From Psychrobacter nivimaris (GTDB lineage: Bacteria; Pseudomonadota; Gammaproteobacteria; Pseudomonadales; Moraxellaceae), in the NCBI RefSeq assembly GCF_009812035.1, contig NZ_VZIZ01000007.1, positions 1 through 64,000 on the forward strand: a stretch of 64,000 nucleotides of DNA, given 5' to 3'. The position numbers were made by a program, and so were the translations under genes. Position 1 is the stretch's first letter. Each line of letters begins with the position of its first letter. Under the pieces are notes generated by a model. The model was given only the letters and a program-made list of their open reading frames with translations. It did no database searches and had not been told where the DNA came from. Of the stretch, positions 11,316 to 14,616 are shown one piece after another.

Positions 11316-11749
11316 TGGCGTGGATGGTAGAGAGGAATAACGGTGATTGATGCTAAATGTATAAGCAAAAGCACCGTTATTAAACGATAAATGCTCATCA
11401 TAATGACAAGCAAATTATGGTAGCACATTCACTAATATACTCAGGTTTAAAAGTGTTATTAACGCTTGATAGATTCTTTATTTGGATTCGAGATTATCGT
11501 AGAAAAACTTGACTAGGAATCACATTTCGACTTGAGACGGTGAAGACAGTTTTCGACTCACGAGGTCAAGATCAACGTTACGTTTATTGCACATACAGGA
11601 TAGTATGGTTAGATGCTATTTGCGCACTTGTTAAGTACTTAACTGCTTTAACGATTGATGACGTTGACAGTTAACAATCACTACCTGCGTCTATCTTTTT
11701 TAGCCTAGAGACGTGCACGACCCCACAACCTTTGAGAATACGATTTACA
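11316..11749. other. 434-bp divergent intergenic region
   Basis: Upstream region of both the MFS gene and the hydrolase. I see no gene, no strong hairpin and no repeat matching elsewhere in the window. A TTGACT at about 11509 could be a -35 element facing the hydrolase, but no convincing -10 pairs with it. Confidence 0.5.
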
Positions 11750-12694
11750 ATGATGAAAAATATGGTGCTTTTAAAACTTATTATCGCGATGAGTACATTG
11801 GTTTTCTCTACGATGGCTGTAGCAGAAATAACTGTGTCCGAAACTAGGGTTAAAAGCCTTAATCCAGTCGTATCGACATTTAACTCTACAAACTCACTAG
11901 CGGCATTAGACTGTATAAAGGATGACGCTATCACTGCTACTGAGCTCACTAAAACACGTGATAACGGTCCGTTTTCTGTAAAGTCCAAGCATGTGAGTCG
12001 CCAATCAGCCAATGGCTTCGGTGGCGGTACCATACATTATCCAACGGATGCTGGTAGCTGTGGTCTGCTAGGTGGTATCGCGGTAGTGCCAGGCTACGTG
12101 TCTTATGAGTCTTCTATCAAATGGTGGGGACCGCGTCTAGCCTCTTGGGGTTTTGTCGTTATCACTATTAATACTAGCTCCATTTATGATAATCCGGATA
12201 GCCGTGCTGAGCAATTGAGCGCGGCTCTCGATCATCTCCTCGCTGATGAAACAGTGGGTCATATAATCAATCCAAATCGTTTGGGCGCGATTGGCTGGTC
12301 AATGGGCGGCGGCGGTGCGCTACGATTGGCAACTGAGCGCAGTACGGTGCAAGCCATCATTGCACAAACGCCCTATCACGATACGAGCTATGGTGCGATG
12401 AATACGCCTGCTCTATTCATCGCTTGTGAAAATGACCGTATCGCTCCGAATAAAAAATATACCAATACCTTTTATCAAAAAGCTGACGGTCCAAAAATGA
12501 AGGTCGAGATTAACAACGGCAGTCATTTCTGTGCCAGTCATCGTTTTAACGAGAAACTATTAAGTAAACCTGCTATCGCATGGATGCAACGTTATATTAA
12601 TGGTGATACCCGTTTCGATAAATTCTTATGTGGCAATGAAAACTACAAAGATGATCCACGTATCTCAGCCTATGATTACGAAGACTGTTTATAA
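11750..12694 (+). CDS. Secreted PETase-like serine hydrolase (cutinase/lipase, type II)
   Basis: Alpha/beta hydrolase of the dienelactone hydrolase/cutinase clan, exported by a Sec signal peptide (hydrophobic stretch then AVA-E). Start is ATG 11750 or 11753; an in-frame TTG at 11732 would add 6 residues and is used for numbering here. The triad is Ser190 in GWSMGGGG, Asp235 in ACENDRIAP and His265 in GSHFCAS. Cys232/Cys267 and Cys300/Cys319 match the two disulfides of Ideonella PETase; the first of these is absent from actinobacterial cutinases. The residue before Ser is Trp, as in PETase (His in type I), while the residue after His is Phe, as in type I. The arrangement matches type IIa enzymes such as the Antarctic Moraxella lipase Lip1. 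Natural substrates are probably lipids or cutin-like polyesters; PET activity is unproven. Confidence 0.88.
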   Translation: MMKNMVLLKLIIAMSTLVFSTMAVAEITVSETRVKSLNPVVSTFNSTNSLAALDCIKDDAITATELTKTRDNGPFSVKSKHVSRQSANGFGGGTIHYPTDAGSCGLLGGIAVVPGYVSYESSIKWWGPRLASWGFVVITINTSSIYDNPDSRAEQLSAALDHLLADETVGHIINPNRLGAIGWSMGGGGALRLATERSTVQAIIAQTPYHDTSYGAMNTPALFIACENDRIAPNKKYTNTFYQKADGPKMKVEINNGSHFCASHRFNEKLLSKPAIAWMQRYINGDTRFDKFLCGNENYKDDPRISAYDYEDCL

Positions 12695-12947: not shown

Positions 12948-13003
12948 GGGTGCTACAAACAAGTAAGATGATTGAATAAATGCACAATTAAGGAGCAATA
13001 TTG

Positions 13004-13750
13004 ATGACTGATGAAATGTATGATTTGGGCGCAGGGTTCTGGAGTATTCGAGGCTCTTTTATCAAAAACGGCATACTTGATATTGGGGTTCAATGTGCAC
13101 TCATAAGACTATCATCAGGACGGTTTATCTTTTTGGATAGCTATACATTAACTGGCAATATTCGTCAGCAGGTAATGGCATTGACCAATGATGGTCAAAA
13201 TGTCGAAGCTGTCCTCAATGTTCATCCGTTTCATACAGTACACTGTGCTCAAATGGCCAAAGACTTTCCGCAAGCCACATTCTATGGCAGTAGCCGACAT
13301 TCAGAGCAAGTACCTGAAGCCAACTGGGCAGACGACTTGGTCGAAAGCGATGCCGTTGCTGCGCGCTACCCTGAACTCAAATTCTCTATACCTCAAGGCA
13401 TCCATTACATCTCACCTGACGAGACGGTGCATGCCAGCTCCTTATTGGTCTATCATCCTGCTAGCCAAAGCATCTATATCGATGATACCTTTGAGATACC
13501 CCCTTCCAAGTTAATAAATGCCGTGCAGCCTAACCTAGGCTTACACCCTACTACCAAAAAAGCGCTCAAAGATGAGCCAAACGCGGCGAAGCATTATTGT
13601 GATTGGGCGGTAGAGCTGGCAAATGAGTGGCGTGATGTTCGTCATTTTTGCGGTGCACATTCAGGCTTAGTGGTATTTAAGGAAGGTCAGTTTGAGGCAG
13701 CACTTATCTCAGCGATTGATTTGGCTCGCCCTGAGCTTGAAAAATCATAA
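13004..13750 (+). CDS. MBL-fold-like protein of unknown function, copy 1
   Basis: A 248-aa soluble protein. Start at ATG 13004 is set by AAGGAG 8 bases upstream and by alignment with the next gene. The segment NVHPFHTVHC resembles a diverged metal motif of the metallo-beta-lactamase fold (HxHxDH), followed by an Asp in YIDDTFE and a His in FCGAHSGL at the places where later metal ligands are expected. I cannot name a substrate. It is the first of two tandem paralogues 119 bp apart and has no signal peptide. The pair sits next to a secreted hydrolase and upstream of nsrR without clear operon links. Base composition is like the neighbours. Confidence 0.7.
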   Translation: MTDEMYDLGAGFWSIRGSFIKNGILDIGVQCALIRLSSGRFIFLDSYTLTGNIRQQVMALTNDGQNVEAVLNVHPFHTVHCAQMAKDFPQATFYGSSRHSEQVPEANWADDLVESDAVAARYPELKFSIPQGIHYISPDETVHASSLLVYHPASQSIYIDDTFEIPPSKLINAVQPNLGLHPTTKKALKDEPNAAKHYCDWAVELANEWRDVRHFCGAHSGLVVFKEGQFEAALISAIDLARPELEKS

Positions 13751-13869
13751 AAGCGTGAACCTTTAGCAAACATACTATTAAAACAACTCGAAAGATGAAG
13801 CTTATAGTGAAAAATTAGCTTTGTTTTATTCATATGTTCTATTTAATTTACTAGATGAGGAAATTATAA

Positions 13870-14616
13870 ATGACTGATCACATTCATGATTTAGGCGCGG
13901 GATTTTGGAACATACGCGGAACATTCCGTCTCGGTGGCGTGTTAAATATTGGTACCCAGTGCTCGCTGGTCAAGTTATCTTCAGGACGCTTTATCTTTTT
14001 GGACAGTTACGCCTTAACAGATGAGGTTCGAAACGAAGTAATGGCGCTAACCAATAACGGTCAAGATGTCGAAGCGGTCCTCAATGTTCACCCATTCCAT
14101 ACGGTGCACTGTGCACAAATGGCAAAGGACTTTCCGCAAGCAACGTTCTATGGCAGCAGTCGTCATCATAAAAAAATACCAGAAGTGAGTTGGGCAGATG
14201 ATTTGGTCGAAAGTGACGCAGTCGCTGCACGCTATCCTGAGCTCAAGTTCTCAATGTCAGAGGGCATTTACTATATCTCGCCCAATGAGATGATTCATGC
14301 AGGCTCTCTATTGGCCTATCATCCTGCCAGCCAAAGCTTGCACGTAGATGATACTTTTATGAGTCCACCAATTAAGTTATTAGAAGCTGTATTGCCTGAG
14401 CTGATACTGCATCCCACGACCAAAAAAGCACTGAAAAATGAACCAAACGCTGGCGCGCAATACTGCGACTGGGCGACCAATTTGGCTCATGAGTGGCGTG
14501 ACGTTCGCAATTTTTGCGCAGCGCATTCTTATCTTGTTCAGTTCAAAGAAGGTGGGTTTGAGAAAGCACTGGTGAAAGCTGTTAAGAAAGCACGTCCAAA
14601 ACTAGAAAATGCCTAA
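13870..14616 (+). CDS. MBL-fold-like protein of unknown function, copy 2
   Basis: A 248-aa paralogue of the preceding gene with the same length and collinear blocks: LGAGFW, SSGRFIFLDSY, VEAVLNVHPFHTVHC, ADDLVESDAVAARYPELKFS and LHPTTKKALK. Differences concentrate in the N-terminal 60 residues and in the C-terminus (AAHSYLV in place of GAHSGLV). Preserved metal-type histidines suggest both copies are active. The ribosome site GAGGAAA lies upstream of ATG 13870. Function unknown. Confidence 0.7.
   Translation: MTDHIHDLGAGFWNIRGTFRLGGVLNIGTQCSLVKLSSGRFIFLDSYALTDEVRNEVMALTNNGQDVEAVLNVHPFHTVHCAQMAKDFPQATFYGSSRHHKKIPEVSWADDLVESDAVAARYPELKFSMSEGIYYISPNEMIHAGSLLAYHPASQSLHVDDTFMSPPIKLLEAVLPELILHPTTKKALKNEPNAGAQYCDWATNLAHEWRDVRNFCAAHSYLVQFKEGGFEKALVKAVKKARPKLENA

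Follow-up and report, generated by a model that had tools for sequence, protein, structure and literature searches.

PETase-like enzymes fall into two types, and in the classification of Joo et al. 2018 (PMC5785972; published sources are cited throughout from excerpts of their text) type II is distinguished by an additional disulfide (Cys203–Cys239) and an extended loop with three extra residues in IsPETase relative to TfCut2, type IIa by Phe or Tyr at position 238, and all type I enzymes by His at position 159. The enzyme Lip1/Mors1 from 'Moraxella' (Psychrobacter) sp. TA144 (UniProt P19833, PDB 8SPK) is handled together with type IIa in a review (PMC11509169), according to which it cleared a suspension of polycaprolactone (PCL) nanoparticles and reduced the weight of amorphous polyethylene terephthalate (PET) film by 1.98% in 6 days at 25 °C; strain TA144 is given as Psychrobacter in one review. 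Here we analyzed a 64,000-nucleotide window of Psychrobacter nivimaris DNA (RefSeq assembly GCF_009812035.1, contig NZ_VZIZ01000007.1, positions 1 to 64,000) and define the identity, predicted fold, residue map, clade and conserved locus of a gene at 11750–12694 on the + strand that encodes a 314-amino-acid, probably secreted, type IIa PETase-like hydrolase related to Lip1/Mors1. We conclude with high confidence that this gene is the Psychrobacter counterpart of Lip1/Mors1, most likely its orthologue, and specifies a probably secreted type IIa PETase-like enzyme that would hydrolyze carboxylic esters through a catalytic serine.

The open reading frame extends from an ATG at 11750 to a stop at 12694 with no internal stops, exactly where a preliminary description of this DNA had placed it. 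An alternative TTG start lies at 11732, 18 bases 5′ of the ATG, and we favor the ATG because close relatives share an MMKN or MTKN opening; more distant Psychrobacter copies start otherwise. The protein matches the PETase family profile PF12740 with E 5.4e-83 and 278.8 bits against a curated cut-off of 28, a family match far beyond chance. The nearest solved protein is 8SPK (E 3.6e-141), to which the protein is 76.2% identical over 261 residues, bearing out the early comparison with the type IIa form of Antarctic Moraxella. Foldseek analysis likewise returned 8SPK as the top match, with a template modeling (TM) score of 0.93 by target length for a predicted model that was built from 18 sequences and has a mean predicted local distance difference test score (pLDDT) of 75.4, with residues 1–50 below 50. 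Residues 1–25 (11750–11824, +) form a probable signal peptide for the Sec pathway: hydropathy peaks at 2.2 across residues 7–18 of the N-terminal stretch, and AVA precedes Glu26 at a cleavage site judged by eye, so the N-terminus looks like a Sec signal peptide, a signal peptide having been suggested before. Promoter-like sites (5 against a shuffle mean of 6.2) and terminator-like sites (1 against 1.1) showed no excess.

To map the active site, we aligned the protein with IsPETase, a TfCut2-type cutinase, LCC, Mors1 and others; the TfCut2-type row is identical to PDB 5ZOA/5LUI, and TfCut2 4CG1 gave a slightly lower score. The position map of the preliminary description held on this alignment with IsPETase, Lip1 and the TfCut2-type enzyme. 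The motif GWSMGGGG at residues 182–189 (12293–12316) contains the subsite II residue Trp183, the nucleophile Ser184 and Met185, corresponding to IsPETase Trp159, Ser160 and Met161, and confirms a Trp before the catalytic Ser. The catalytic triad is completed by Asp229 (IsPETase Asp206), at the end of a segment that begins with the active-site cysteine Cys226 (12425–12436), and by His259 (IsPETase His237), which is followed by the type IIa residue Phe260 and by Cys261, the partner of Cys226 (12524–12532). Six cysteines are present in the protein, at residues 55, 104, 226, 261, 294 and 313. Cys226/Cys261 occupy the columns of the PETase-specific Cys203/Cys239, and those of Cys273/Cys289, the general PETase/cutinase pair, are taken by Cys294/Cys313, which bound the C-terminal region at 12629–12688, in line with the earlier assignment of cysteines to both PETase disulfides. 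Phe260 occupies the IsPETase Ser238 column, where both type I rows also carry Phe, as had been noted. IsPETase Ser214 is replaced by Tyr237, a position that is His in the type I rows, PET6, Ple628 and two Halopseudomonas rows, and IsPETase Asn241 by Ser263. Three further features lie beyond the preliminary description. A third, N-terminal cysteine pair is formed by Cys55 (11912–11914) and Cys104 (12059–12061), equivalent to Mors1 Cys60 and Cys109, reported as its third disulfide (PMC11509169); Tyr209 (12374–12376), equivalent to Mors1 Tyr214, replaces the IsPETase clamp residue Trp185; and the β8–α6 loop region (12533–12562) exceeds that of the type I rows by two residues and is one residue shorter than its IsPETase equivalent, the loop lengths being 13 here and in Mors1, 11 for the type I rows and 14 for IsPETase.

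Set against the published type II and type IIa descriptions, the Cys226/Cys261 pair is matched by alignment, Trp183 and Phe260 are in place (Trp at position 159 of the type II rows being read off our own alignment), and the loop has only two of the three extra residues. The type II features named in the preliminary description, the disulfide cysteines and the Trp, thus stand; a further published type II feature, the extended loop, is present only in part, as it is in Mors1. In the phylogenetic tree a branch with support of 100/98 separates type I from type II rows and places the protein on the type II side, rather than outside it, and forcing the Psychrobacter clade to group with the type I rows was rejected (approximately unbiased test, p-AU 0.0135). 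Type I is represented in this tree by only two rows and type IIb by a single one, and the program flagged the meeting of long branches, namely those of the type I rows and of PET6 and a Vibrio relative beside the Psychrobacter clade, which leaves the sister group of that clade undecided; support for the type II placement is moderate. Together, the residue map and tree support assignment of the predicted gene product as a type IIa PETase-like hydrolase.

The proposed mechanism begins with export through the Sec pathway, directed by the putative signal peptide, after which three disulfides would form outside the cytoplasm as judged by alignment with Mors1. By the catalytic route established for this family, His259 and Asp229 would activate Ser184 for attack on the ester carbonyl, giving an acyl-enzyme that water then resolves. 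An open surface cleft, lined according to the alignment by Tyr116, Trp183, Met185, Tyr209 and Phe260, would admit simple lipid esters and also the chains of polyesters, PCL for example and, at a slow rate, amorphous PET near 25 °C. The native role of the enzyme would most likely be the use of lipids or polyesters of natural origin, not of plastic. Because the homologue Mors1 is reported to degrade PCL and PET at 25 °C, slow polyester hydrolysis in the cold is likely for this predicted homologue, and its designation as a candidate low-temperature polyesterase is a sound prediction from homology. Several observations weigh against equating the protein with an active orthologue of Mors1. The structure model draws on 18 sequences and has low confidence over residues 1–50, and Asn148 replaces the subsite I residue Asp153 of Mors1, so that activity may differ between the two. 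The protein also belongs to a different Psychrobacter subclade, and a group of the protein with Mors1 alone, named after the tree had been seen, was rejected (p-AU 6.3e-05). One genome (G043) holds two strong PF12740 copies (E < 1e-80) where G000 holds one, so within-genus paralogy exists, and Mors1 itself is reported to have required 4x the amount of IsPETase for similar product release (PMC11509169). Mors1 is nested inside the Psychrobacter clade, and among the 41 Psychrobacter rows the Asp153 column contains 19 Asp, 16 Asn and 6 other residues; because the position varies across Psychrobacter, Asp153 does not define the Lip1/Mors1 group.

The type I-like Phe260 stands beside the IsPETase-like Trp183 and Cys226/Cys261 in a protein whose loop length is intermediate between the types, and the preliminary description had accordingly spoken of mixed type I and type II features, a combination that could mark a true mosaic or intermediate between a type I cutinase and a type II PETase. 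The residues it named are all present, but their combination is not unusual: Phe or Tyr at position 238 belongs to the type IIa description itself (PMC5785972), and the tree groups the clade with type II and rejects a type I grouping. We therefore rejected a mosaic origin, which we regard as exceedingly improbable. The protein could also be a secreted lipase or esterase of the same fold that inherited the type IIa signature while its substrate use drifted, with no useful polyester activity. Consistent with this possibility, P19833 is annotated as a triacylglycerol lipase (PMC12224614), the clamp Trp is replaced by Tyr, position 214 is also Tyr, the loop falls short of the IsPETase length, and the immediate neighbors include no obvious polyester catabolic cluster; a search of the organism's own genome for the tannase family (MHETase-type) gave no match, a result that says little as all 14 controls were equally silent. 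However, Mors1 carries the same Tyr, loop length and third cysteine pair and is reported to degrade PCL and PET (PMC11509169). An enzyme limited to such lipase or esterase activity appears unlikely to us, and we retain the assignment as a type IIa counterpart of Lip1/Mors1.

The host is a Psychrobacter, in agreement with neighbors that are 87–100% identical in the named Psychrobacter locus L035, and the genus is cold-adapted. A PF12740 profile search of 96 genomes detected a strong copy in 33 of the 60 same-genus genomes, including the organism's own. Such patchiness could point to recent horizontal transfer, for instance of a plastic-related trait, yet the surroundings of the gene argue against it. 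A divergently oriented major facilitator superfamily (MFS) transporter gene (PF07690; 10035–11315, −) lies upstream in 39 of 41 named Psychrobacter loci. Downstream, at least one member of a tandem pair (13001–14616, +), with a metallo-beta-lactamase fold predicted from the second copy, is likewise present in 39 of 41; neither the MFS gene nor the downstream pair was seen in 38 other loci, some of which are represented by short stretches. The Psychrobacter rows form one clade; in P. frigidicola (L047) the gene copy is at another site. Fifteen of the 27 same-genus genomes that have no strong copy keep both flanks within 2.4 kb, and in 9 of these fifteen the flanks are only 351–645 bases apart, which looks as though the gene had been gained or lost at a fixed position. 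A search with five query proteins found no family match at E < 0.01 in 16 intervals, these 15 and that of G012, whose copy lies elsewhere. Recent transfer is thus very improbable, and the most plausible reading is that of an accessory gene with a stable position in the chromosome. Mechanical calling of other open frames in the gene-less intervals gave lipoprotein-like frames of 266–270 amino acids in L123, L124, L126 and L129 and a 377-amino-acid frame in L125 and L127.

The seven neighbors scanned are the MFS transporter, two AMP-binding enzymes (one acetyl-CoA-synthetase-like), an Rrf2 regulator, NnrS and the downstream pair, neither of which has an assigned family. We found no sign of a polyester-degradation gene cluster among these seven genes and set that possibility aside, and the MFS transporter scored 69.7 bits against an aromatic-acid symporter model, far under the cut-off of 418.55. 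A pathway for terephthalate or mono(2-hydroxyethyl) terephthalate (MHET) was not demonstrated in the scanned neighbors or in the own-genome searches. The organism's genome contains one match to a ring-hydroxylating oxygenase.

We compared clade-specific sites across 79 loci, comprising 41 Psychrobacter rows and 38 others, which represent 80 relatives kept from 98 confirmed; these were found with two peptide patterns, one containing GWSMGGG, and one row with a broken reading frame (L050) was used as is, leaving some counts out of 40. Position 185 (IsPETase numbering) is Tyr in 41/41 Psychrobacter rows and Trp in 29 or Tyr in 9 of the 38 others; position 214 is Tyr in 37/41 and His in 38/38, respectively. 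Cys occupies the Cys55 column in all 41 Psychrobacter rows and 23 of the 38 others, and the Cys104 column in all 41 and in none of the others. The loop is 13 residues long in all 40 readable Psychrobacter rows, compared with 14 residues in 36 and 17 in 2 of the 38 others, and Phe is found at position 238 in 36 of 40 Psychrobacter rows. GWSMGGGG occurs in 34 of 34 same-genus copies recovered with the Pfam profile, the organism's own included, as scored with a pattern that fixed G.S.GGGG. The Trp before Ser in 38 of 38 non-Psychrobacter rows partly reflects selection, and because a pattern with GWSMGGG chose the rows, conservation of the motif across the 79 loci is not independent evidence. It is conceivable, though we hold it only tentatively and think it rather unlikely, that type II contains a separate natural subtype made up of the Psychrobacter/Lip1 clade, with a Tyr clamp, mostly Tyr at 214, a loop extended by two residues, Cys104–Cys55 pairing, mainly one locus across the genus, and a basal P. 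glacincola paralogue with a type IIb-like Ser after His. If so, the clade would merit its own label and supply at least 34 natural variants for studies of cold polyester hydrolysis.

The second, basal paralogue of P. glacincola ACAM483 (L068:7908-8792, the same gene as L006) resembles type IIb IsPETase in its NSG loop and in the Ser that follows the catalytic His; its locus retains the downstream pair, and the usual MFS match does not appear in the stretch covered. Type IIb has four members in the enzyme set of Joo et al., each of them from Burkholderiales (PMC5785972). Proteobacteria bacterium 005FR1 (L082) also has Ser after the catalytic His, and five further loci (L065–L067, L099 and L113) have Leu, Thr or Trp at this position, beyond the type descriptions in the excerpted text of PMC5785972.

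As an uncharacterized close relative of a known enzyme, the protein has little significance alone, since a characterized relative with a crystal structure already exists. Its practical worth lies in belonging to a series of natural Lip1/Mors1 variants, which could reveal the substitutions that govern activity and stability at low temperature, for example Asp153/Asn, the Tyr/Trp clamp or loop length. Related Psychrobacter proteins have been named before: PET9 (A0A0D4L7E6, 313 amino acids) as a PET-hydrolase candidate (PMC8540959), and a 314-amino-acid protein of P. nivimaris LAMA 639, 69.5% identical to P19833, likewise (PMC8857425). Both resemble the present protein in genus, length and annotation, a likeness by description and not by sequence, and since a PET9 is reported to have an acetyl xylan esterase domain match (PMC5881046), PET9 may belong to another group. 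The PSL2 lipase was considered as a related case and rejected, being a family IV enzyme in the portion of its source consulted. P19833 is counted as M5 by the authors of PMC12224614; in the part of the M5 motif quoted in the excerpts, DxDxR(Y)xxFxC, Asn replaces the first Asp in our protein and likewise in Mors1 on the 8SPK alignment.

Comparison with the remaining characterized enzymes places the protein closest to Mors1, with which it has in common the triad, all three cysteine pairs, the Tyr209/Tyr214 substitution, Phe after His and loop length, and from which it differs at subsite I. IsPETase (type IIb, 42.9% identity) resembles it in fold, GWSMGGGG and both of its cysteine pairs, and differs by its Ser238, Trp185, Ser214 and three-residue loop extension. 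The type I enzymes, the TfCut2-type cutinase 5ZOA (41.2%) and LCC (44.0%), have the fold, triad, Phe after His and C-terminal cysteine pair in common with it, whereas they carry His instead of Trp before Ser and are without the active-site cysteine pair and the extended loop. PET6 from Vibrio gazogenes has a third disulfide that a review likens to that of Mors1 (PMC11509169); its relative in Vibrio ruber (L086) carries two N-terminal cysteines lying close together (CSDC), with no cysteine at the Cys104 column, and the extra bonds of the PET6 type and of Mors1 may differ. PE-H (as read from Halopseudomonas aestusnigri VGXO14, L112), PET6 and Ple628 share the type IIa signature and active-site cysteine pair with the P. 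nivimaris protein, but at 43–52% identity they retain the clamp Trp and the IsPETase loop length and have no cysteine at the Cys104 column.
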